In this document: positions 1,541-17,774 of the stretch, one piece after another
Layout of the letters: each line of letters opens with the position of its first letter
How positions within the stretch are numbered: position 1 is the stretch's first letter
DNA from: a bacterium (Candidatus Blackallbacteria) CG13_big_fil_rev_8_21_14_2_50_49_14
GTDB taxonomy: Bacteria; Cyanobacteriota; Sericytochromatia; UBA7694
Reading direction: 5' to 3'
DNA length: 64,000 bases
Assembly (NCBI GenBank): GCA_002783405.1
Contig: PFGG01000080.1
Span: 124,001 to 188,000, forward strand
The notes under the pieces: model-generated
Told to the model about the DNA's origin: nothing
Databases searched by the model: none
Seen by the model: the letters and a program-made list of their open reading frames with translations, nothing else
Translations under genes and position numbers: made by a program

Positions 1541-3349
1541 GTGAGTTTTATTGAGCGCAAAAAAGCAGGGATCTACAAGCTATACCCTGGATTGATCGGG
1601 CGTAGAACCGAGATCTCAGCTGTAAAATATGCCATTCGGCAAATGGAAAACCGCATCAGTTCTGGCTTAAAAGTCAGAGATTACGCAAATATTTTCTATT
1701 TTTATGGCCGTGTAGGTTCCGGTAAAACCACTTTGTTGAGAACCATTTTTGATGATTGTGAACGTGGTGAGCTGGGTTTTCAGCCGCTCAGTGTCTGGTT
1801 TGACTGCTCAAAAATAGCCCAGTCTGAGGCCACGGCAGAAGAGAGTTTTGTGGTTGAATTGACCCGCGCTTTGGTGAGTATGGAAGAGCAATTGGCGCCC
1901 CTTTTTCAGCCGGTTTTTGATTATTGGGCCAATTTGGTCAAAGACCCTGCGGCTGCTCCCGCTGGCAACCTTCCAGCAGTTGTAGATCCTGCCACCCAAG
2001 CTTCGGCTTCACCTGTAAACCGCACCAATCCTGTGAAAGCTGCCTATGGTTCGATTTCAAGTATTGAAGTCAAGAAGAGCCCTTCAGGCAAACAAAACGT
2101 GAAAGATATTGCCCGCAGCGTCAACCGCAATATGCAGGCCATGGAAGCTGCCCAACGGACAACGCCAGCCCCCCCTCCTCTCAACAGCAAAGGGGAACTG
2201 GTCAAGCGTTTTGCCCATGCGGTGGATCAAATGGCAGGCCATTTTCGGGTGGTGTTTTTTTTGGATAATTTTGAAACCTTTGAGCGTTCCGAAGAATGGT
2301 TTCGCCAGGTATTTCTGAAGGCCTTTCAAAAAGAACTGATCCTGGTGATTGCCGGTGAAACCGATCTGCATACCACCTATCAGCAGGAATTTGGCAATGT
2401 TGCCAATTGTGTGGGTCTTCAACCCTTTTCTGTTTTTGAAACCGGGCATTTTCTGGCCTTTCAGAATCAGATTAGCGATCCTAAAATTGTGGTTTCGGCG
2501 CACCGCTTGGCCGGTGGCAATCCGCTCTGCGTGACCATGATTGCCGCAGCATTGCAGCATGTGATCAATCAACAGGCACCGGCAGCACCGTCTGGGCCTT
2601 CAGGGCAATCCCGTCTCTTTGCGCTACAGCAAGGGCTTACCCCTGCAAACAGTGTGCCCCCCTCTGCCGCTTTGCGTTTTCTGGAATGGCCAGGAGATGA
2701 TTATGGCGAAAAGATCAACAAATATATCGCCTATATCATGATGGATGAACTGCCCCAGACTGATCAGAATATGTTGGCAGCTTTGGCCCTGATGAATCAT
2801 TTTCAAGCTGAACTTTTTCAGCATTTGTCTGGCGTGATGAATGTCAGTCGAACGCTCGAAAACTTAAGCCAGCGCTACCGTTTTATTTCACCGGATGGCG
2901 AGATGATGGAGTTTATGAAGCGCACGCTGCGTGGCTATTTTAAACAGGAAATGGAAAATGTCTTTGATGACATCATGCGGGCAGCCTACGATTTTATGGC
3001 TGAACAGGTGCGTCAGCACCCTGAGGATTTGAACCTTTTAATTGATGCCATGTATTATTATTTTCATCTGGATTTCAGAGTCGCTTACCGCCATTATGTG
3101 GGTTTGGTTTCACATTATATGCACACGGAACTTGATTTCTGCGATCGGTTGGCTGCCGAAATGCTCTCCTGCTCGATTCCACAGGAGGTCAAGCATAAGA
3201 TTCGCTCAATGTCGCGCAGTTTGGGCTGGTTCCGTAAGAAAGATCCCAATGGCTCACAGTTTATTATGTCTGAGGTGGCCAATCCAGAGGCGATTGATAA
3301 CGAAGAAATGCGCTTTGTCGCGGATCTGTTCTTAATGACGGATCATTGA
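1541..3349 (+). CDS. P-loop ATPase (AAA/STAND-like), unknown role
   Basis: 602 residues from a GTG start. The N-terminus has an ORC/AAA_16-like segment (LIGRRTEISAVKYAI), then a Walker A motif GRVGSGKTT near residues 56-64 and a Walker B-like VVFFLDNFE near residue 240. A proline/alanine-rich, probably disordered insert (about residues 135-215) separates them. The C-terminal half is helical and could be a winged-helix or TPR-like sensor part, as in STAND ATPases. No membrane segment is visible. It is followed 12 bases later by an exported TPR protein and a small unknown protein on the same strand, so the three are probably co-transcribed. The substrate or effector cannot be told from the sequence. 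Confidence 0.8.
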   Translation: MSFIERKKAGIYKLYPGLIGRRTEISAVKYAIRQMENRISSGLKVRDYANIFYFYGRVGSGKTTLLRTIFDDCERGELGFQPLSVWFDCSKIAQSEATAEESFVVELTRALVSMEEQLAPLFQPVFDYWANLVKDPAAAPAGNLPAVVDPATQASASPVNRTNPVKAAYGSISSIEVKKSPSGKQNVKDIARSVNRNMQAMEAAQRTTPAPPPLNSKGELVKRFAHAVDQMAGHFRVVFFLDNFETFERSEEWFRQVFLKAFQKELILVIAGETDLHTTYQQEFGNVANCVGLQPFSVFETGHFLAFQNQISDPKIVVSAHRLAGGNPLCVTMIAAALQHVINQQAPAAPSGPSGQSRLFALQQGLTPANSVPPSAALRFLEWPGDDYGEKINKYIAYIMMDELPQTDQNMLAALALMNHFQAELFQHLSGVMNVSRTLENLSQRYRFISPDGEMMEFMKRTLRGYFKQEMENVFDDIMRAAYDFMAEQVRQHPEDLNLLIDAMYYYFHLDFRVAYRHYVGLVSHYMHTELDFCDRLAAEMLSCSIPQEVKHKIRSMSRSLGWFRKKDPNGSQFIMSEVANPEAIDNEEMRFVADLFLMTDH

Positions 3350-7172: not shown

Positions 7173-7901
7173 TTACCAGGGCGTGATGCGGGTATTGAGG
7201 CTATCCCATAGTTCGCCCAGGGCTTTTTTCAAGCGGCGCGAAACTTGCATTTGTGAAATGCCTAGATTTTTAGCAATTTCGGTTTGGGTCAGATCCTGAT
7301 AAAAGGCAAATTCGAGGATCTGGCGGGATTGAAAACGCACTTTTTTAAGTGCATCTTGTAAAAGAATCCGATCTTCCTGGGCCAGCTGAAAGCTTTTATA
7401 ACGTCTATCTTCCAGTTGATCCAAGATCGAAGTGGTGCCTTCTTGAAAGGCTTTGTAATCCTGATCTAAAGAAATGGGAAAGAAGTTTTTTTCGAGATGG
7501 CGAACTTCTTCGAGTTTTTCCTGACTGATGCCCAAATGTTCGCTGATTTCTTCCTGAGAGCCTTCCCGGCCCAATGTGCTTAAGAGATGAAGCTCTGCAT
7601 TGCGCACTTTGGGAAGCAGTTCTTGCAGTTCGCGGGGAGGTCTGACCACAGGCAACTGGTCACGCAGGTAGTGTTTGATTTCACTTGCAATCAGATGGGC
7701 AGCATAGGTGCGAAAATTGATTTTTCGTTCGGGGTCATAGCGTTTAATTGCATTGAGTAGGCCGATGGCACCGACTTGAACCAGATCCTCATAATGACTT
7801 TGCACCATTTGACTGTAATTACGCGCAATCCGATGCACCAGATCCATATTCTGGATTAGAATTTCTTCACGCGTATTTTCTTGATCTTTGAGGGCGGTCA
7901 T
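7173..7901 (-). CDS. Group 3 sigma-70 family sigma factor (SigF/SigB-like)
   Basis: 242 residues. Region 2 is clear: YEDLVQVGAIGLLNAIKRYDP followed by the core-binding and -10-recognition helix FRTYAAHLIASEIKHYLRD. Region 3 (QEEISEHLGISQEKLEEVRH) and region 4 with the helix-turn-helix LTQTEIAKNLGISQMQVSRRLKKAL follow. Region 1 is absent, as expected of a group 3 factor. Relatives control stress, sporulation, flagella or, in cyanobacteria, pilus and motility genes (SigF). Its place between haem genes and the pilus motor genes fits a motility or surface role but does not prove it. No anti-sigma gene is adjacent. Confidence 0.93.
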   Translation of the reverse strand: MTALKDQENTREEILIQNMDLVHRIARNYSQMVQSHYEDLVQVGAIGLLNAIKRYDPERKINFRTYAAHLIASEIKHYLRDQLPVVRPPRELQELLPKVRNAELHLLSTLGREGSQEEISEHLGISQEKLEEVRHLEKNFFPISLDQDYKAFQEGTTSILDQLEDRRYKSFQLAQEDRILLQDALKKVRFQSRQILEFAFYQDLTQTEIAKNLGISQMQVSRRLKKALGELWDSLNTRITPW

Positions 7902-7954: not shown

Positions 7955-9181
7955 TTATTGAATCGCACTGATAACACTGAACATGGGCAAATACATCCCA
8001 ATGATAATACTACCCACCATGCCACCAATTAGCACCATCATAAGCGGCTCAAGTAAAGAAGTCAAGGCCTTAACCGCTTGCTCTACTTCTTCATCATAGA
8101 AGTCAGCGACCTTTGAGAGCATGGTGTCTACGTTTCCGGATTCTTCCCCAATGGAGATCATCTGGGTGACCATGGGGGGAAAGAGCTTGGTTTGTGTCAG
8201 GGGTTTGGTCATGCCTTCACCTTCACTGACAGCTTCACGAACCTTTGCGATCCCGGCGGCAATATGCACATTTCCAGCCGTATCTTGGGTGATTTCAAGG
8301 GCGCTCATTAAGGGAACGCCACTGCGCAAGAGGGTTCCCAGTGTGCGGGTGAAACGGGCAATGGCTACTTTACGAACAATATCTCCAAAAATGGGAGCTT
8401 TCAGGATGACATTGTCAAATTGTGAGCGGCCAAAGGGAGTTTTGACATAGGCGAAGAGCCCCCAGGCTGAACCAAATATCGACGGAAAGATAATAAACCA
8501 ATAGCCGCGAACCAAAGCACTCATATTCAGTAGCAATTGGGTAAAGGCTGGCAGGGGAACCCCCATGGAGTCAAACATTTCCTTAAAGATTGGAATCACG
8601 AAACTCAAGAGGAAAATAAAGATCGAGGTGGCGATAAAGCAGACGACCGAAGGGTAGGTCATGGCAGATTTTAACTGCCCAATCAGTTTGGCATTGCTTT
8701 CCATAAAGAGTGCCAAACGGTTGAGCACCTCATCGAGAACCCCGCCCATTTCTCCTGCCGAAACCATGCTGCAATAGAGCTTGTTAAACGTTTTGGGATG
8801 ATCGGCCAGACATTCAGACAGCGAGCGTCCTTCTTCAACGCCATCACGCACCTCACTGAGGATACGCTTGAAAACAGGGCTTTGGGCTTGTTCTGCCATG
8901 ATATTCAAGGCTCTTAAAAGCGCTACACCTGAATTGATCATGGTGGCAAACTGACGGGTAAAAACCACCATCTCTTTCAGTTTGACCTTCTGCATTTTCA
9001 TCAGACGGCTATTGATGGCAGCGCCTAAGCCCCCGCCACCACTTTGTTTCTCGGTAATATCCAGTGGGAAAAGACCCTGTTCACGCAACTTTGCACGGGC
9101 CTGTGCCAGATTAGGGGCCTCTATGGTTTTAGATACCTGTTGTCCACGGGCATCTCTTACGGTACATGCGAAAGTTGCCAT
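7955..9181 (-). CDS. pilC: Type IV pilus inner-membrane platform protein PilC (GspF family)
   Basis: 408 residues, the standard PilC length. Two repeated T2SSF cytoplasmic domains (VVFTRQFATMINSGVALLRAL and IARFTRTLGTLLRSGVPLMSAL) are each followed by membrane helices, near residues 168-190, 220-245 and 375-400. PilC anchors the pilus assembly and retraction ATPases beneath the pilus. The N-terminal region (ATFACTVRDARGQQV... EAPNLAQARAKLREQGL) is the usual PilC opening. A gap of 18 bases from pilT places it third in a pilB-pilT-pilC unit. Confidence 0.95.
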   Translation of the reverse strand: MATFACTVRDARGQQVSKTIEAPNLAQARAKLREQGLFPLDITEKQSGGGGLGAAINSRLMKMQKVKLKEMVVFTRQFATMINSGVALLRALNIMAEQAQSPVFKRILSEVRDGVEEGRSLSECLADHPKTFNKLYCSMVSAGEMGGVLDEVLNRLALFMESNAKLIGQLKSAMTYPSVVCFIATSIFIFLLSFVIPIFKEMFDSMGVPLPAFTQLLLNMSALVRGYWFIIFPSIFGSAWGLFAYVKTPFGRSQFDNVILKAPIFGDIVRKVAIARFTRTLGTLLRSGVPLMSALEITQDTAGNVHIAAGIAKVREAVSEGEGMTKPLTQTKLFPPMVTQMISIGEESGNVDTMLSKVADFYDEEVEQAVKALTSLLEPLMMVLIGGMVGSIIIGMYLPMFSVISAIQ

Positions 9182-9199: not shown

Positions 9200-10312
9200 T
9201 TAACGACGTCCGCCAGCTGCGCCGCCACTTTCATTCATCAAACGTTGGAAATCATCCGGTCGACTTGTCTTTTGGATCGCGTCTTCAAAGGTGATTTGGC
9301 GTGAAATACACAAATCACGCAGTACCATTTCCAGGGTAGCCATGCCGTATTTGCCACCGGTTTGAATGGCTGAATAGATTTGGGGAGTTTTACCTTCCCG
9401 GATCAGGTTGGCAATAGCAGGTGTCACGGTCATGATTTCCATGGCCATGACACGGCCTTTGCCGCGCGGGGCAAAATCTCCCACGGTGGCACGGGGCAAT
9501 AGGGTTTGAGAAAGTACAGCGACAAGACTGTTGGAAAGTTGGATACGAATTTGGGTTTGCTGGTGGGGCGGAAAAACGTCTACCACACGATCAATGGTCT
9601 GACTGGCAGAGCTGGTGTGAAGGGTGCCAAAGACCAAGTGACCTGTTTCCGCTGCGGTGAGTGCCAGACGGATGGTTTCAAGGTCACGCATTTCGCCGAC
9701 CAGAATAACGTCTGGATCTTCACGCAGAGCTGCGCGCAGGGCATTGTCAAAGGAACGGGTATCTTCTCCCAATTCGCGGGAATTAACCAAGCTTTTTTTG
9801 GAAACGTGTACATATTCAATCGGATCTTCAATCGTGAGAATATGTTCTGCTCTTTCTGTATTGATTAAATCAATCATGGATGCCAGGGTGGTGGATTTTC
9901 CGCTCCCGGTAGGCCCTGTTACCAAGACCAGACCTCTGGGTTTTTTGGTAAGCTCTTTGACGACAGGAGGCAGACCCAGCTCATCAAAACGGGGAATTTT
10001 GGAGGAAATCGTACGCAGGGCAGCCGCATAGGCACCTTTGTCTTTGTAGACATTGACACGAAAACGTCCCAGACCCACCACCCCGTAAGAACAGTCAAGC
10101 TCCCAGGTTTGCTCGAGGGTTTTGCGCTGTTCATTGGTGAGAATATTAAAGATCAGTTTTTGTGTGTCTTCTGGAGTGAGAGGCTCAAAGTCTGTCGGTG
10201 TAAGTTTGCCATTGACGCGAATCATGGGGGGAACGCCTGCCGCAATATGCAGGTCGCTGCCATCCTTATCGAAAACCATCTGAAGCAATTCTTCCATGAA
10301 GATCTGGGACAT
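9200..10312 (-). CDS. pilT: Type IV pilus retraction ATPase PilT
   Basis: 370 residues. The N-terminal PAS-like domain (GSDLHIAAGVPPMIRVNGKL) and the RecA-like ATPase carry Walker A GPTGSGKSTT near residue 135, the Asp box LTIEDPIEYVH, Walker B ILVGEMRDLETI and the His box GHLVFGTLHTSSA. The retraction-specific motif appears as AIRELI-like IANLIREGK near the C-terminus. PilT hydrolyses ATP to depolymerise pilin, which drives twitching motility. It follows pilB with a 30-base gap and precedes pilC. Confidence 0.96.
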   Translation of the reverse strand: MSQIFMEELLQMVFDKDGSDLHIAAGVPPMIRVNGKLTPTDFEPLTPEDTQKLIFNILTNEQRKTLEQTWELDCSYGVVGLGRFRVNVYKDKGAYAAALRTISSKIPRFDELGLPPVVKELTKKPRGLVLVTGPTGSGKSTTLASMIDLINTERAEHILTIEDPIEYVHVSKKSLVNSRELGEDTRSFDNALRAALREDPDVILVGEMRDLETIRLALTAAETGHLVFGTLHTSSASQTIDRVVDVFPPHQQTQIRIQLSNSLVAVLSQTLLPRATVGDFAPRGKGRVMAMEIMTVTPAIANLIREGKTPQIYSAIQTGGKYGMATLEMVLRDLCISRQITFEDAIQKTSRPDDFQRLMNESGGAAGGRR

Positions 10313-10342: not shown

Positions 10343-12526
10343 TTAAGCTTTTTGTTTAAGTGTTGTAAAGCAGTATGGGCAAGTATCCCATTCTTCTTCG
10401 ACCGTCGCCAGACAAGAGGGACAACGATCAGAGGCCGAAGCGGTTGATTGACCTGCAGCAGGCAAGGCCCCTCTGATTTTAGGCTGTGGGGGGCCTTTTT
10501 TCTTGTCAGAAGGGGGTGCAATGGCAATCGCTTCTGAGCCACTGCCATCTGAAACAGCAGGGGCACTGTGCTGCGGTGATGATGTTTCCAGTGAAGAACC
10601 ACTGGGGGAAGGCGAACTTGCTTGTTTTGAAGCAGCAGCCTGTTGTTTTGCTTGTGCTCGGTAGTCTGGCTTGCGGGGAGGGATCAGCCGAATCAATTCT
10701 CGGGGTTCAGGCACTTCGGGAGGGGGGAAGAATCCCATTTCAATGTCCCCATCTTCAGAGCCTTCATCGGTCATGGTGACGCGTAAAACCTCGTCAAAGT
10801 CTGTAAAACCGTCGCGTACCAGCATTAGGGAATATTCTTTGAGCGGCACCATGCCACTGCGTTTAGCGGCCTGGCGGATAATCGATTTAACTGCGTCTTT
10901 GTTGATGGCTTCGCGCAGATCATCATTGATGGCCATCAGCTCATAAACACCCATACGGCCTTTGTAGCCGCCACTGCATTTTTCGCAGCCTTCTTCATTG
11001 TGCTTGTAAACCTGAATTTTTTCACCGGGTTTCCAGAAGGGGTAACCTACATAATAGAGCAAGGCTTCGTCTGGCTCATATAAAACACGGCATTCTGGGC
11101 ACATACGGCGCACCAGACGTTGAGCCAGTACACAGATCGTGGAAGAAGAAATCAGGAAACCATCGATCCCCATTTCCTGGAGACGGGTAATCGCCCCTGG
11201 AGCATCGTTGGTGTGCAGACTGGTAAACACCAAGTGACCTGTCAGCGCAGATTCAATTGCAATATGTGCGAGTTCTTTGTCACGGGTCTCCCCGATCAGC
11301 ATGATATCCGGATCTTGACGCAAGAAGGCCTTCAAGATGCGTGCGAAAGTTAAGCCAATTTCAGGCTGGGCCTGTGATTGGGTAATACCCGCCAAATCAT
11401 ATTCAATCGGGTCTTCTGCGGTTGAGATATTGACATCTGGGGTATTGCGCTCTGCCAGGATGGAATAGAGCGAGGTGGTTTTTCCGGAGCCTGTGGGGCC
11501 TGTTACGAAGATAATGCCGTAGGGGCGTTGTACGAATTCGCGAATGGCTTTTAGCAATTCGGGATAAATCATCAGCTTTTCAAGGCCCAATGAAGTATTG
11601 GAGTTGTCCAGAATACGCATAACGATCTTTTCACCGTGTTTGGAAGGCAGGGTGGAAACGCGAAAGTCAATATTGCGCCCGCCAATACGGCGTCTCAGAC
11701 GACCATCCTGGGGTAGACGTTTTTCGGCAATATTCAGGTTGGTAATAATCTTGAAGCGAGAAGCCAAGGCATTGGCGATGCGTTTGGGCAGGTGAGGTTC
11801 TGAGTGCAAGACCCCGTCAATACGGTAACGCAGGCGCAGTTCATGTTCCTGGGGTTCAATATGAATATCACTGGCTTTCTTTTTTAAGGCATTGGCCAGA
11901 ATGGCGTTTGCCAAACGTACAATTGGGGCGGCATCGGCGTCTGACTCGTCAAACTCTTCATCATCATCGACTTCAGAAACTTCCATTTCACCGACAATTT
12001 CATCGGTGTCATGGTCTTTGTCGAGCGCAATCCCGACGGGTCCTTTTTTGACCTCCGTGGTTGCGGCGGGTTTGGCTGCATCCAATTGGTCATTCAAAAA
12101 TGCGTAAAAATCATCTTCTGTGATGACCACTGCGCGTACAGAGATACTTTTGCCAATTTTTTTACTGACAGACATGCGCACATCGTCAATGGCTGGCAAA
12201 TCCTGTGGATTGACCATGGCAATCGTCAGGTTATTGTTGACGAAATTAATCGGGATAATCTGACGTTGTCGAATCAGATTTTCAGGAATCATCGTTAAGA
12301 GGTCTGATGTCAGTTTGATCGTTTTGACATTGACATAGCTGATGCCAAATTGCAACTCGAGTGCGTCTTTGATATTGCTTTCAGTGACATAATTCTGTTC
12401 AATCAGAATTTGCCCCAGGGATTTGCTGGTGTTTTTCTGTTGAACCAGCGCTTCTTCAAGCTGATCCTCGCTGATCATGCCAGCTTCGAGCAGAATTTCT
12501 CCGAGTCGCTTGCGTACTAGAGCCAT
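10343..12526 (-). CDS. pilB: Type IV pilus extension ATPase PilB with a C-terminal zinc ribbon
   Basis: 727 residues; typical PilB is about 560-580. The N-terminal MshEN/T2SSE_N domain (RLGEILLEAGMISEDQLEEAL) binds platform proteins or c-di-GMP in relatives. The ATPase has Walker A GPTGSGKTTSL near residue 345, DPIEYDL, GETRDKELA and HLVFTSLHTNDA, and the PilB zinc-binding pair CPEC / CEKCSGGYKGR. After about residue 605 comes an extra proline/serine-rich linker and a terminal CPSC...CPYC ribbon not found in ordinary PilB. That tail is inferred to be a docking or regulatory module. First gene of pilB-pilT-pilC. Confidence 0.95.
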   Translation of the reverse strand: MALVRKRLGEILLEAGMISEDQLEEALVQQKNTSKSLGQILIEQNYVTESNIKDALELQFGISYVNVKTIKLTSDLLTMIPENLIRQRQIIPINFVNNNLTIAMVNPQDLPAIDDVRMSVSKKIGKSISVRAVVITEDDFYAFLNDQLDAAKPAATTEVKKGPVGIALDKDHDTDEIVGEMEVSEVDDDEEFDESDADAAPIVRLANAILANALKKKASDIHIEPQEHELRLRYRIDGVLHSEPHLPKRIANALASRFKIITNLNIAEKRLPQDGRLRRRIGGRNIDFRVSTLPSKHGEKIVMRILDNSNTSLGLEKLMIYPELLKAIREFVQRPYGIIFVTGPTGSGKTTSLYSILAERNTPDVNISTAEDPIEYDLAGITQSQAQPEIGLTFARILKAFLRQDPDIMLIGETRDKELAHIAIESALTGHLVFTSLHTNDAPGAITRLQEMGIDGFLISSSTICVLAQRLVRRMCPECRVLYEPDEALLYYVGYPFWKPGEKIQVYKHNEEGCEKCSGGYKGRMGVYELMAINDDLREAINKDAVKSIIRQAAKRSGMVPLKEYSLMLVRDGFTDFDEVLRVTMTDEGSEDGDIEMGFFPPPEVPEPRELIRLIPPRKPDYRAQAKQQAAASKQASSPSPSGSSLETSSPQHSAPAVSDGSGSEAIAIAPPSDKKKGPPQPKIRGALPAAGQSTASASDRCPSCLATVEEEWDTCPYCFTTLKQKA

Positions 12527-12622: not shown

Positions 12623-12949
12623 CTAGAGGCTGGCCGCTGTTTCCATCAGTTTTGAAAGATTGAAGCCATCTGTGCTGTTTACAAAAACAACCATCAGACT
12701 CCCATCTGCTAATCCTGATAATAAGGTAATGCCTTGTTCCGTTTCAAGCAGAATGCGTTTGAGTGTTCCTCTCTGCATACGTTTGATCTGAACACCCAGA
12801 TTGGCAAACATTGACATGGCAACATTGCCTACTTCTGCTTCCATGGGTGGATTGCTGGTCACCAATTGTCCTGCACCGCTGACAATTCCGACAGATGTCA
12901 CGCCAGGCAGTTGTTGCATGGTTGAAATTTCATTTTGGTAGTTAGACAT
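12623..12949 (-). CDS. Roadblock/LC7 domain protein (MglB-like), single domain
   Basis: 108 residues, entirely one Roadblock/LC7 fold: ISTMQQLPGVTSVGIVSGAGQ, then the LGVQIKRMQRGTLKRILLETEQG strand-helix block and a final LMVVFVNS strand. Such proteins dimerise and, as MglB, serve as GTPase-activating partners of Ras-like MglA that set polarity of type IV pili. No MglA-like GTPase is in this window. It sits 5 bases after the larger roadblock protein and just before pilB, so a role in regulating pilus position or activity is inferred. The two roadblock domains share the V(K/Q)(Q/I)(K/R)xM(K/Q)RG segment and could heterodimerise. Confidence 0.85.
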   Translation of the reverse strand: MSNYQNEISTMQQLPGVTSVGIVSGAGQLVTSNPPMEAEVGNVAMSMFANLGVQIKRMQRGTLKRILLETEQGITLLSGLADGSLMVVFVNSTDGFNLSKLMETAASL

Positions 12950-12954
12950 GGTTT

Positions 12955-14922
12955 TTATTGTCTCCCGCTCATGGCAATTACTGCAGCTATCAGTTTGTTC
13001 ATACTGAACTCAGGGGTATTTTGGCTGAAGGCAACCAAGGTTCCCATTTCAAGTGAAGAAAGCACGGTATATCCAATATCCGTTTCGATCACCATCCGGC
13101 GAATACCGCCACGTTTCATTTGTTTTACCTGAACATCAATATTCAAGTAAATTGAGGAGGTTAAGGCACCTACAATTTCCTTGTCGATTTCAGTGGGCAT
13201 GGTATTGGCAATCACCAGGCCATCATTGCCGACAATCAGGGTGCCGACAACACCAGGCACTTCATTGACTTCTTTCAAGAGTTCGTCAAAGGTTTGGCCT
13301 TGAGCGGCCAAAATGACCTGGGTCGTGGTCAGGCCTTTGGAGCCTAATTTTTCAGCTCTGCGAATGATATCTTCCAAGGTGCTTTGATCCACGAGCATTT
13401 TGCCCATGGGCGCCAGTCCTTCTTTTTTGGGTTGCGTAGAAGGCGGTTTTTGGTTGACATCAATTGAAGATTTTGAATCATCCAGTTTAAAAGACGAAAG
13501 AAAATCGGAGCCAATGCTGTCTGCGCTGAAGGTGGCTGGCTGTGCAGGAGGTTCGGGAGCTGCTGCGGCAGGAGCCGAGGCCAGATCATCAAAATTCAGA
13601 TCATTCAGATCCAAACCACTGCTGGTTGGCGCAGCGGCCGGGGCAGGGCTTGAATCGCCAAAGAGATTATCCAAGGCATTGTCGAGACCGCCACTGTCAA
13701 ACATGCCTCCACCGGAAGGGGCGGAAGCAGGGGCTGGGGCCGCTTTGGGGGCTGCTGCAGGGGCGGGAGCGGGGGCCGGGGCCGAGCCTGCATCGCCAAA
13801 GAGATCGTCCAAAGCGTTGTCTAAACCACCGGCGTCAAAGAGGCCTCCACCAGCAGGAGCTGCGGCCGGAGCGGCAGCGGCAGGGGCTGCTGCAGGGGCG
13901 GGAGCGGGGGCCGGCGCAGGGGCGGCAGGTTCTTCACCAAAGAGGTCATCCAGGGCACTGTCAAGGCCGCCACTGTCAAAAAGGCCTCCTCCTGAGGGGG
14001 CTGCTGCAGGAGCAGGGGCCGGAGCAGGGGCCGGAGCGGGAGCCGGTGCGGGAGCAGGGGCTGGGCTGGAATCACCAAAGAGGTCATCTAAGGCATTGTC
14101 AAGGCCGCCATTGTCAAAGAGACCTCCTCCAGCGGGGGCTGCTGCAGGGGCAGGGGCCGGAGCCGGGCTTGAATCGCCAAAGAGGTCATCCAGAGCGTTG
14201 TCGAGGCCGCCATCGAAAAGACCTCCGCCAACAGGGGCTGCTGCAGGAGCAGGGGCCGGAGCTGGGCTTGAATCGCCAAAGAGGTCATCCAGAGCGTTGT
14301 CGAGGCCGCCATCGAAAAGGCCACCACCAGCGGGCGCTGGAGCAGGGGCGGGTGCAGCTGTTGGTTTATCACTGTCTTCAAGCAGTGAGTCCAAAGCATT
14401 GTCTAAGGCTGAAGAGTCAAAAACAGAAGAAGCAGCCGCAGGAGCGGGTGCTGGCTTAGGGGGGGGAGCCAGGCTAGGAGCTGCTGGAGCCGCTGGAGGT
14501 GCCAGACTCGGCGGTGCCGATGAAACTGGGGGTGCAGAGGACACAGGAGGCGTAGACGAGACGGGAGGAGGCGTCAGCGGTTTTTTTGCTGCGATGGGGG
14601 AGGCTGGCTTCTTTAAGGGAGAAGGGGGGGCAGAACCCGGACGTGACGAAGTTGTGGGACGTGATTTTTTCTGTCCTGAAGACTTGCCCTTCATCAAGAA
14701 AAGTGCGGCCACAACCGAAATAACAGCGACAGCGCCTATGGCAATCAATGCTACAGGGGGGCCGCCGGCAGCGGCCTGTTGAGTTGTTGTTTGTACTGCA
14801 GTTGTTGTTTGAGTGGCGGTCTGGGCCACCGCTTCTTGATTAATCAGAGGAAAGACAAGCAGGCAGACGCCAATCATCCACTGGTGGTAGTCATTCAGTT
14901 GAGGTATATCCCCTCTGCGCAT
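12955..14922 (-). CDS. Membrane-anchored roadblock protein with repeated [15 protein letters not shown] motifs
   Basis: 655 residues. Ribosome-binding site AAGGAG lies 7 bases before the ATG. Residues about 16-34 form a signal-like hydrophobic stretch, and residues about 57-76 a second membrane helix followed by Lys/Arg, so the rest should be cytosolic. A Ser/Pro-rich region leads to seven motif units: a degenerate [17 protein letters not shown] followed by six close copies of [20 protein letters not shown], separated by Pro-Ala linkers; a further weak copy ([13 protein letters not shown]) ends the array. The last about 110 residues are a Roadblock/LC7 domain ([20 protein letters not shown]). 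I infer a membrane scaffold that displays repeated short helical docking motifs near the pilus motor. No known gene name fits. Confidence 0.85.
14165..14319 (-). repeat. Near-identical 99-base tandem repeat inside the roadblock scaffold gene
   Basis: A block of about 56 bases starting GGGCTTGAATCGCCAAAGAG occurs identically at 14165-14220 and again from 14264, a period of 99 bases (33 codons). Identity at synonymous positions indicates recent duplication or gene conversion of one docking unit. Confidence 0.85.
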
Positions 14923-15078: not shown

Positions 15079-16041
15079 TCAGATTACGAGTTTACGCAAG
15101 CGTGCACTCAGATTGTCAACGCCCATGACCAGAACAATCAGAATAACCACAATCGAGGATGCTTCTTGGTATTGAAAGGTTCTGAAAGAGGTATTTAAGA
15201 GATAGCCAATACCTCCTGCACCGATCAAACCCAAAATAGCCGCTGCTCTGATATTGGTTTCAAAACGATAAAGCGTAAATGAAATCAGATCAGGCAACAT
15301 TTGTGGCACCACCGCAAAAGATAAAATTTGCGGATAGGAGGCGCCTGTTGCGCGAATGGCTTCTACCACGCCCTTGTCGATGTTTTCAATCGATTCAGAG
15401 AGCAGTTTCGTGAGCACTGTGGTGGTATGAAAAGCCAGGGCCAAAGTGCCCGCAAAAGGTCCCAGGCCCACTGCTGAAACGAAAATTAAGCCCAGAGCCA
15501 GATCTGGAATGGTGCGCAGGAGATTGATTAAAAAACGTACGCATTTATAAACCACAGGGTGAGGCGTGGTATTGATCGCCGCCAGAAAGGCCAAGGGAAA
15601 GGCAAAAATAACAGCAAGTACAGTCCCCACCAAGGCCATTTGAATGGTTTGAATGGTTGCACCTACAATCGTCTGTGGAAAGGTATTGTTCCACCAACGC
15701 TGTTTGAGCTTGGCCTGTTCTTTGGATAAAGGCATGGGAGTTAAGAGTTGAGGTACTGTCATCCCTTCAGGTACTGAATAGGATTTCTTGTCTACGATGC
15801 GTGTGCCGTCAGGAGGCAGCATGCGTCCAATGGTTTCGATAATTTTGGGCAGGCCTTCAAAGAGTTCGTTAAAACGGAATTTTGCCCCATCAAAAGCCCA
15901 AAGAACAAGCAGCGCTGCTAAAAAAAGCATGACCAAGCGCTTTGAACCTTTATGCGGTGGTTTGGGGGCATGCTGAAGTGTACTTTCACGCAGCTCAGCT
16001 GTATTTTTCCATTGACGGGTTTCGGTCTGCAAATCACTCAT
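15079..16041 (-). CDS. phnE: Phosphonate-type ABC transporter permease
   Basis: 320 residues with five or six membrane helices. It opens with a cytosolic N-terminal stretch and a helix at about residues 33-50 (LVMLFLAALLVLWAF), then a periplasmic segment and the BPD_transp_1 domain (QTIQMALVGTVLAVIFAFPLAFLAA). The EAA-type loop is VEAIRATGASYPQILSFAVVPQMLPD. It is longer than most PhnE proteins because of the N-terminal extension. The start overlaps the end of phnC by 4 bases. It forms the membrane channel of an importer for phosphonate, phosphite or a related oxyanion. Confidence 0.9.
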   Translation of the reverse strand: MSDLQTETRQWKNTAELRESTLQHAPKPPHKGSKRLVMLFLAALLVLWAFDGAKFRFNELFEGLPKIIETIGRMLPPDGTRIVDKKSYSVPEGMTVPQLLTPMPLSKEQAKLKQRWWNNTFPQTIVGATIQTIQMALVGTVLAVIFAFPLAFLAAINTTPHPVVYKCVRFLINLLRTIPDLALGLIFVSAVGLGPFAGTLALAFHTTTVLTKLLSESIENIDKGVVEAIRATGASYPQILSFAVVPQMLPDLISFTLYRFETNIRAAAILGLIGAGGIGYLLNTSFRTFQYQEASSIVVILIVLVMGVDNLSARLRKLVI

Positions 16042-16838
16042 TTGGTAGCCTGCCGGGTAAATCTTTGGTAAATATTGGCGACAACTTCGTCGCTTAAATT
16101 TGCGGGAAGATCGTCAAATGCGACCTCTCCTTGAGCCAAACCAATCACGCGATCGGAATAACGTCGGGTCATTTCAAGGGTGTGCAGGCTGACAATCGTC
16201 GTGATATTGTCTTCCTGGCTGACGCGTTTCAAAATATCCAGTACGGTTTCTGCAAGTTTAGGATCCAGGCTCGCAACCGGCTCATCTGCCAGAATCAGAC
16301 TGGGATTTTGCATCAGGGTGCGTGCAATTGCAACCCGTTGTTGTTCTCCTCCACTCAGGGCGTCGGCACGCTTATAGGCGTGAGAGAGCAGGCCGACACG
16401 TTCAAGATTGATCAGCGCGGTTTCTTTTTCCTGCTGGTTAAAGATTCTCAGGGTGGTACGCATGGCATCGAGGTAGCCCAGGCGCCCAGACAAGACATTT
16501 TCAAGCACGGTTAAACGTTTGACAATATTAAACTGTTGGAAGATCATGCCTGTTTTTCTGCGCCAGGCACGCAGTTCTTTGCCGCGTAAGCTGCTGATAT
16601 CCAGGCGGGTTGGATCGTTGTTGTTGAGAAAGACAGCACCGGGAACGAGCATTTCTCCTTCAGAAGGTTCAACCAAACGGTTGATGCAGCGCAGCAAGGT
16701 CGATTTTCCTGCGCCACTGAGCCCAATTAAACCGACAAACTGCCCGGCCTGAATTTGGATGCTCAAGCCCTTGAGAATCGGGCGCCCATCGGCGTAGGAT
16801 TTTTTCAGATTTACCAGCTCGAGTAAAGGCGTACGCAT
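16038..16838 (-). CDS. phnC: Phosphonate-type ABC transporter ATPase
   Basis: 266 residues. Walker A GLSGAGKSTLLRCINRL, Q-loop FQQFNIV, signature ALSGGEQQRVAIART, Walker B LILADEPVASLDP and the H-loop VSLHTLE are all intact. The INRLVEPSEGEM and GRLGYLDAMRTTLRIF segments are typical of PhnC. It energises import through PhnE. It lies 3 bases after phnD and overlaps phnE by 4 bases, so the three genes form one tight operon. Confidence 0.93.
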   Translation of the reverse strand: MRTPLLELVNLKKSYADGRPILKGLSIQIQAGQFVGLIGLSGAGKSTLLRCINRLVEPSEGEMLVPGAVFLNNNDPTRLDISSLRGKELRAWRRKTGMIFQQFNIVKRLTVLENVLSGRLGYLDAMRTTLRIFNQQEKETALINLERVGLLSHAYKRADALSGGEQQRVAIARTLMQNPSLILADEPVASLDPKLAETVLDILKRVSQEDNITTIVSLHTLEMTRRYSDRVIGLAQGEVAFDDLPANLSDEVVANIYQRFTRQATK

Positions 16839-16841
16839 GGT

Positions 16842-17774
16842 CTATTTTCCTTTGCCTGAAGCGCTAAGCTCTTTTTTCACTTCGATTCCGGCTTCAGAAA
16901 AGGCGCTTCTGATCCCTTGGTAATCTTCGTCAGTTGCAGGCACAAAGCTGTCGATGCGGTAGAGCTTTTGAATCAGTTTTTGACCTTCAGGATCTTTGCT
17001 GAGTTCAATAAAGAAATCCTGAACCTGTTTGGCCAATTCAGGGGCAATGTCTTTGCTAATGCAGATATTATCTGAAGGGATGGCGTCAGAGACTGCCAAA
17101 ATTTTGAGCTGCTTGGCTTCTTCAGGTTTGAGCAGATGTTTCCAGGCTGCGTCATCTCCCTTGGGGTCATTGGCATAGGTCGCGCCAGCCACTACTTTTT
17201 TATTGAAGACAGCCAGGACGGTGGCGTCGTGACCCCCTGAAAAAATCAGATTGTCAAAATCCGTGGCCGGGTTAATGCCCTGTGCTTTGAGCATTTTTAA
17301 GGGGTAAATATAACCTGCAGTGGAGAGGGTGTCGCCAAAGGCAAAGGTTTTGCCTTTGAGATCCGTCAATTGATTGACCCCAGCATCCTGGCGGGTAAAA
17401 ATAATCGAATGGTAAAAGGGTTTGTCACCCCGCTGAGCTTTGAGAATGACTTTGACACCGGCCTCACTGTTGGCCATAACGTAAGAGGCTGGGGTGAGAA
17501 AGGCTGCATCGAGTTTTCCTCCCCGAAAAGCCTCTACAATGCCTGTATAATCGGTCGCAATAAAAGGCTGTACTTCTCTGCCGATTTTTTTGCTCATCAT
17601 GTCGATCAGGGGCTGAGAATTGCGTTGAATTTCTTCCATATTTTCAGAGGGAATGAATCCAATTCTTACTGCAGCTTTTTCGGGGCTTGAGTTAGAAGTC
17701 TCGGATTGTCCAGAAGGGCAGCCAGTCAGTAAGGGAAAGATCAGGGCGATAAGGGGAAGGCAGCGTTTGAGCAC
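16842..17774 (-). CDS. phnD: Phosphonate-type substrate-binding lipoprotein
   Basis: 310 residues. The N-terminus ends in the lipobox LLTGC, so the protein should be lipid-anchored facing the periplasm. The PhnD-like fold shows RIGFIPSENMEEIQRNSQPLIDMM, then FLTPASYVMAN and FAFGDTLSTAGYIYPL, which line the oxyanion site in this family. First gene of phnDCE. No C-P lyase, phosphonatase or phosphite dehydrogenase gene is in the window, so the real substrate (phosphonate, phosphite, phosphate) cannot be decided. Confidence 0.92.
   Translation of the reverse strand: MLKRCLPLIALIFPLLTGCPSGQSETSNSSPEKAAVRIGFIPSENMEEIQRNSQPLIDMMSKKIGREVQPFIATDYTGIVEAFRGGKLDAAFLTPASYVMANSEAGVKVILKAQRGDKPFYHSIIFTRQDAGVNQLTDLKGKTFAFGDTLSTAGYIYPLKMLKAQGINPATDFDNLIFSGGHDATVLAVFNKKVVAGATYANDPKGDDAAWKHLLKPEEAKQLKILAVSDAIPSDNICISKDIAPELAKQVQDFFIELSKDPEGQKLIQKLYRIDSFVPATDEDYQGIRSAFSEAGIEVKKELSASGKGK

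Follow-up and report, generated by a model that had tools for sequence, protein, structure and literature searches.

A Roadblock-domain scaffold with an array of selected docking motifs beside the type IV pilus motors of Sericytochromatia

LAMTOR/Ragulator and EGO are membrane-tethered roadblock scaffolds for Rag GTPases. SgmX, a TPR protein, and FrzS are hubs for MglA-controlled pili. In Myxococcus xanthus, MglA and SgmX stimulate type IV pili, according to the accessible parts of two reports (PMC7519303, PMC7668184), and the C-terminal helix of RomR docks in a positively charged cleft where the subunits of the MglC roadblock dimer meet (excerpt of PMC12719032). The tail of CheZ in complex with CheY is represented by structure 2FMF (in the available portion of PMC5760072), and the FliM consensus LSQXEIDALL, which is disordered before binding, binds CheY-P (PMC6700473, in part). 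In Pseudomonas aeruginosa, the CheY-like protein PilG directs PilB to the pole; the accessible text of PMC11656802 states that an interaction has yet to be reported and gives the recruiter as not known.

Here we analyse a 64,000-nucleotide stretch of a Sericytochromatia genome (the window), in which a 655-aa protein, hereafter the scaffold, is encoded next to the type IV pilus motors. Its C-terminal domain has the fold of MglB and other Roadblock/LC7 proteins. A roadblock fold and a membrane tether are shared with LAMTOR/Ragulator and EGO, although the scaffold's context is a bacterial pilus. We know of no repeated motif array in either of those complexes. The scaffold also resembles the M. 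xanthus RomR–MglC pair, which combines a long disordered linker with a helix engaging a roadblock protein, but the Pfam scan found no receiver domain and the roadblock and the motifs lie in one chain. Like SgmX and FrzS it is a candidate type IV pilus hub in genomes that encode MglA, yet neither a TPR nor a receiver domain was detected. The scaffold and its neighbours comprise the following features.

14698..14754, minus strand: transmembrane segment, residues 57-75 (hydropathy)
14380..14424, minus strand: motif copy 1, degenerate, residues 167-181 (pattern search)
14278..14319, minus strand: motif copy 2, residues 202-215 (pattern search, core DNA pattern)
14179..14220, minus strand: motif copy 3, residues 235-248 (pattern search, core DNA pattern)
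14077..14121, minus strand: motif copy 4, residues 268-282 (pattern search, core DNA pattern)
13939..13983, minus strand: motif copy 5, residues 314-328 (pattern search, core DNA pattern)
13798..13842, minus strand: motif copy 6, residues 361-375 (pattern search, core DNA pattern)
13660..13704, minus strand: motif copy 7, residues 407-421 (pattern search, core DNA pattern)
13303..13422, minus strand: conserved GKMLVDQ (VDQ) segment, residues 501-540, N-terminal to the Roadblock domain (orthologue alignment)
13042..13290, minus strand: Roadblock/LC7 domain, residues 545-627 (Pfam PF03259, Robl_LC7; AlphaFold2 model; fold searches)
12955..14922, minus strand: the whole scaffold gene, 655 aa, ATG start (ORF call, Pfam, hydropathy)
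12623..12949, minus strand: small roadblock protein, 108 aa, Robl_LC7 E 3.8e-6 (Pfam, gene-order comparison)
10343..12526, minus strand: PilB assembly ATPase with MshEN domain (Pfam)
~10370-10423, minus strand: zinc-ribbon-like CxxC...CxxC tail at the PilB C-terminus (sequence comparison)
9200..10312, minus strand: PilT-type retraction ATPase (Pfam)
7955..9181, minus strand: PilC-type inner-membrane protein, T2SSF (Pfam)
7173..7901, minus strand: sigma-70-family factor, last in the conserved gene order (Pfam, gene-order comparison)

From the N-terminus, the scaffold consists of a signal-like stretch, the transmembrane segment, a Pro-rich linker, the motif array, the VDQ segment and the Roadblock domain. 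The signal-like stretch (residues ~15-28) is the weaker of the two hydrophobic regions and precedes the sole clear transmembrane segment. The membrane tether proposed in the sequence-only reading is thus present in the window protein, but a transmembrane segment was seen only in families f1 and f2; orthologues of f4, f6 and f7 have none, and their N-terminus is basic and includes a small hydrophobic patch. The VDQ segment is found in f1-f4 and f6 and is missing from f7. Its identification as half of an MshEN/T2SSE N-terminal domain was ruled out, with an hhalign probability of 0.4% to the PilB N-terminus.

The motif follows the consensus [LM]F-x2-4-LDxALDxLF, and its seven copies, six of them close and one degenerate, are set in linkers that are ~68% Pro+Ala (over 152 residues), making up a strongly acidic array (net -34). 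Across 20,000 shuffles of the scaffold protein the array pattern occurred 0.00005 times on average and at most once in any shuffle, so that pattern search and shuffling both bear out the six near-identical copies and the one degenerate copy in Pro-Ala linkers first read from the sequence. Furthermore, the core DNA pattern LDxxLDxLF has six matches in the 5.65-Mb genome, all inside the scaffold gene, against none for the reversed control. The copies follow one another at 35, 33, 33, 46, 47 and 46 residues, a regular spacing that nevertheless falls into two blocks (33-35, then 46-47 residues) and is not strictly even as had been proposed. A weaker acidic segment after the last motif, at window positions ~13570-13630, is possibly a decayed eighth copy.

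Purifying selection on the motifs is strong. For the nine-codon core, pairs of copies taken from the same f1 array (33 copies from five genomes, with one or more copies of G003 hidden by N) gave pS 0.70, pN 0.064 and pN/pS 0.09 as uncorrected proportions over pooled, non-independent pairs; the flanking stretches gave pN/pS of 0.44, 0.52 and 0.39. Because synonymous sites vary freely while core residues barely change, the array is a selected docking motif and not a low-complexity artefact. The alternative, that the repeats are a product of low-complexity slippage with no specific partner, would fit the Pro/Ala-rich linkers, which are free in length, as well as the masking of the array region in G003 and the splitting of the G011 gene within the array. 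Yet the silent sites of the copies have strongly diverged while the core peptide was held, which slippage alone is insufficient to explain, and distant families still carry the same motif once. We regard slippage as extremely improbable.

With the roadblock part of the scaffold as query, 15 of the 39 genomes searched yielded a relative. When a profile of the C-terminal region was run against 386 genomes of the phylum, 14 of the 18 class genomes matched, but G006 did so over a short part alone, so that 13 have a scaffold; outside the class, the matches listed were generic roadblocks only, ~100 residues long and at most ~40 bits. As for the five class genomes lacking a scaffold, completeness is 74% for G006 and 64% for G017, the contig of G014 stops within pilB at the place where the scaffold would start, and the best PilB matches of G010 and G012 are 47% and 39% identical, compared with 56-84% for scaffold-adjacent pilB.

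The motif is present in 13 of the 18 class genomes, always within the scaffold protein. Its columns F, D, L, D, L and F are invariant in all 12 aligned orthologues, as are the glycines of the Roadblock domain; G011, whose main contig lacks the front half, was excluded from alignments A1 and A4. By pattern search, the window protein and G001 have seven copies, G002 eight, G003 at least five (part of the region being N), G004 six, and G005 and G007 three each. A single copy is found in G008, G009, G013, G015 and G016, and in G011 on its other contig. By family, f4, f6 and f7 have one copy, f2 and f3 have three, and f1 has at least five. Every orthologue whose N-terminal half is available keeps at least one copy, so that a loss of the motif from relatives retaining the operon, which the sequence-only reading had named as evidence against itself, is not seen. 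Since single copies are widespread, while f1 has the arrays and f2 and f3 have smaller sets, the motif appears to be ancestral and the array to belong to f1; the simplest reading of these counts is that the f1 array arose by expansion from a single ancestral motif.

A wider pattern run over the 18 class genomes also matched outside the scaffold in G016, G013, G011:C25, G004 (twice) and G003:C331; the five inspected, in G016, G013, G011:C25 and G004, were not scaffold-like frames. Scanning a genome contig database with the motif returned seven records, three of them scaffolds from the class and four unrelated frames. Several assemblies are masked or broken at or near the array gene (loci L042, L158, L161 and L051), with N in G003 and contig ends in G011 and G014, and copy numbers in fragmented genomes may therefore be underestimates.

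The scaffold gene is part of a conserved pilus neighbourhood. In 12 of the 13 class genomes with a scaffold, pilB is the next gene downstream or, in f1, comes after the intervening small roadblock gene, and the order scaffold-pilB-pilT-pilC is conserved in f1, f2, f3, f4, f6 and f7 as far as contigs extend, with a sigma factor after pilC in several of the genomes compared. The exception is G011, where the short contig with the C-terminal half of the scaffold runs on into other sequence and the front half (G011:C161) sits at the end of another contig, which makes the assembly uncertain there. No chemosensory gene neighbourhood is shared with the scaffold in the stretches compared, and promoter and terminator scans gave matches no more frequent than in shuffles. 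Also in the window, a NACHT/AAA-type NTPase and a TPR neighbour (1541-3349) lie near the pilus operon and are kept in all three other f1 genomes that reach this far; phosphonate-type ABC transporter-like genes, labelled by resemblance, lie upstream on the same strand (15079-17774) and recur in all four other f1 genomes.

PilB is one alternative partner: the motifs might bind it directly, through MshEN or the C-terminal zinc ribbons, so that the scaffold would decorate or store several motors. Besides the adjacency of scaffold and pilB in 12 of 13 genomes, CxxC tails accompany the scaffold-associated motor, with one to three CxxC pairs past the ATPase core in all ten PilB orthologues with a complete C-terminus and in the C-terminal part from G014, while in the scaffold-less G012 the best PilB match has no such tail. 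On the other hand, PilB of G010 has the same kind of tail although that genome has neither scaffold nor motif, which weakens any obligatory pairing of motif and ribbon. Nor does the number of CxxC pairs track the number of motifs: PilB ends in a single ribbon in f1 but has two of them in f4, f6 and f7 and three in f2 and f3, so that f1 combines the most motifs with the fewest ribbons. We consider direct binding to PilB distinctly unlikely.

Pfam confirms the C-terminal Roadblock domain and, downstream, the small roadblock gene and pilBTC, as the sequence-only reading had them. The Robl_LC7 match of the scaffold (E 1.9e-12, 47.2 bits against a curated cut-off of 23) was the only one in the Pfam scan, which gave no FliM core (PF02154), receiver domain or TPR array. 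An AlphaFold2 model of scaffold residues 383-655, built on a 12-sequence alignment, has a confident Roadblock domain (pLDDT ~77-91 per block of ten residues) and a disordered motif; a second model, of the single-motif orthologue from G015, gives the same picture of the Roadblock domain with the motif again disordered. In fold searches, archaeal roadblocks and M. xanthus MglB come out as the nearest solved structures, with Foldseek E values of 2e-8 to 3e-6 against 6h5b, 6hjm and 9jue, and VIA-align to the solved roadblocks gives Z 17-18.5 and rmsd 1.5-2.1 over 112-118 aligned residues. These matches are chains of ~109-134 residues, whereas the scaffold domain ends a 655-aa membrane protein with an array. 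Furthermore, the scaffold gene differs from mglB in its neighbours, which are the small roadblock gene, pilB, pilT and pilC instead of mglA.

Another alternative is that the motifs bind Roadblock dimers, either the scaffold's own or those of the small roadblock protein, in an MglA–MglB-style polarity hub bringing MglA to the pilus. The RomR helix on the MglC roadblock dimer offers an analogy (PMC12719032, in the excerpted text), and MglA is encoded in 17 of the 18 class genomes. All five f1 genomes, which have the largest arrays, carry the extra roadblock gene between scaffold and pilB, and the conserved QIKRMQRG stretch of its product is basic, as against the acidic array. Yet this gene lies beside the scaffold in no other family (G005, of f2, has two roadblock genes at other loci) while the motif is class-wide, so the small roadblock protein cannot be the ancestral partner. 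The motif has no ordered helix in either AlphaFold2 model and thus gives no indication of docking on the Roadblock domain, a weak objection coming from single chains and shallow alignments. MglA, moreover, is encoded on another contig with a different roadblock. Binding to Roadblock dimers seems to us unlikely.

Searching elsewhere in the genome for an MglA-like GTPase, a check proposed with the sequence-only reading, located MglA on contig G000:C10 beside a roadblock gene of its own and a further protein. At this locus (L056:7150-9074), with MglA at L056:7150-7728, the roadblock is MglB-like, and the further protein has 299 aa and appears to resemble DUF4388/PATAN. MglA-GTP or another effector might itself bind the motifs, as MglA acts via SgmX in Myxococcus, and the distribution of MglA across the class and the stimulation of M. 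xanthus pili by MglA and SgmX (PMC7519303 and PMC7668184, each in part) would agree with this. However, SgmX has TPRs whereas the Pfam scan of the scaffold gave Robl_LC7 alone, and we found no Ras-binding motif that resembles the scaffold motif. An MglA-GTP partner is accordingly rated highly unlikely. With MglA elsewhere and the closest sequence likeness being to CheY-binding peptides, the GTPase or motor originally proposed as the motif's partner is not supported.

The partner that we favour is of the CheY type, on account of the motif's likeness to the tail by which CheZ binds CheY and, to a lesser degree, to the CheY-binding motif in the class's own FliM. On the class-wide motif profile, the peptide of the CheZ tail, with its letters taken from the available portion of PMC5760072, scores above all 31,952 of 31,952 background windows, and on a BLOSUM-averaged profile only four of 31,952 score as high or higher, in a comparison picked after the motif had been seen and as a lead from convergent-looking short peptides. 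It is the best match to the motif that we found among CheY-binding peptides. The class is flagellated by gene content, with FliM encoded in 17 of its 18 genomes and FliM N-termini of the form [VI]LSQxxIDxL[LM]. The hydrophobic spacing of the FliM motif equals that of the 14-residue scaffold form (f4, f6 and window copies 2 and 3), a spacing that two sites fit in 32,616 background residues. On a FliM profile, two scaffold copies from f7 rank 5 and 7 among 31,537 windows, but most copies match weakly (27-615 of 31,537 windows as high) and the CheZ tail matches poorly (7,087 of 31,537). A phmmer search of two motif peptides against PDB sequences returned no CheZ, no FliM and no useful match.

The CheZ and FliM docking peptides share with the scaffold motif an acidic amphipathic segment with an [IVL]DxxL core. 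The scaffold is unlike both proteins in having neither domain, in carrying seven copies per chain and in its place by the pilus motors instead of the flagellum. Both the window's genome and G013 have stand-alone CheY genes adjoining their flagellar genes. CheW is encoded in 16 of the 18 class genomes; against a CheY-type partner, G013 lacks CheW while having the motif, although CheY is present there. In the window's genome, a separate region (G000:C65:188400-191500, L188) contains flagellar FliM, FliY-like and CheY genes, with CheY at L188:427-789, and the N-terminus of the FliY-like protein has an LSQxxINALL motif. By analogy with these peptides, we tentatively read the scaffold as an array at the pilus on which CheY-like response regulators would dock, a possibility that falls short of an even chance.

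At the pilus, the scaffold probably collects a signalling protein in many copies, since the motif is held almost unchanged by selection, as an array in the window protein and as a single copy in distant relatives. Of the multivalent platform at the pilus base that was first suggested, the multivalent nature is well supported and the purifying selection and the position directly upstream of pilB agree with it; the GTPase or motor as partner finds no support here. As a type IV pilus-associated docking protein, the scaffold would dimerise through its Roadblock domain, as the fold suggests, and be placed at the pilus motor that its neighbouring genes encode, held at the inner membrane by its transmembrane segment or, in other families, by its basic N-terminus. 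Each motif, disordered on its own, may become an amphipathic helix when it enters a groove of a soluble partner, with leucine and phenylalanine along one face and two aspartates that are invariant. If the CheZ tail and the N-terminus of FliM are a guide, this partner would most likely be a CheY-like response regulator, bound at its alpha4-beta5-alpha5 face. Expansion of the ancestral single motif into the f1 array would raise local capacity and avidity, and could allow a chemosensory signal to build up at PilB and PilT and to influence them.

An array of selected docking motifs in a pilus-operon Roadblock scaffold is apparently undescribed; searches of an open-licence library listed no paper that describes the scaffold or, for Sericytochromatia, a roadblock gene next to pilB. 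The fuller proposal, of a pilus-side CheY antenna in which a Roadblock (Ras-type) polarity module is joined to chemotaxis through up to eight CheY-docking motifs beside PilB, is rather doubtful at present. If true, it would be a pilus counterpart of the FliM ring, with repeats in one chain replacing many subunits, and would be found in non-photosynthetic relatives of Cyanobacteria. The scaffold is a concrete candidate for a link of the kind that has yet to be reported between PilG and PilB in P. aeruginosa (in the accessible text of PMC11656802), and its motif is short enough to synthesise. The passage from a single class-wide docking motif to an array in one lineage would offer a clear natural case of evolving avidity.
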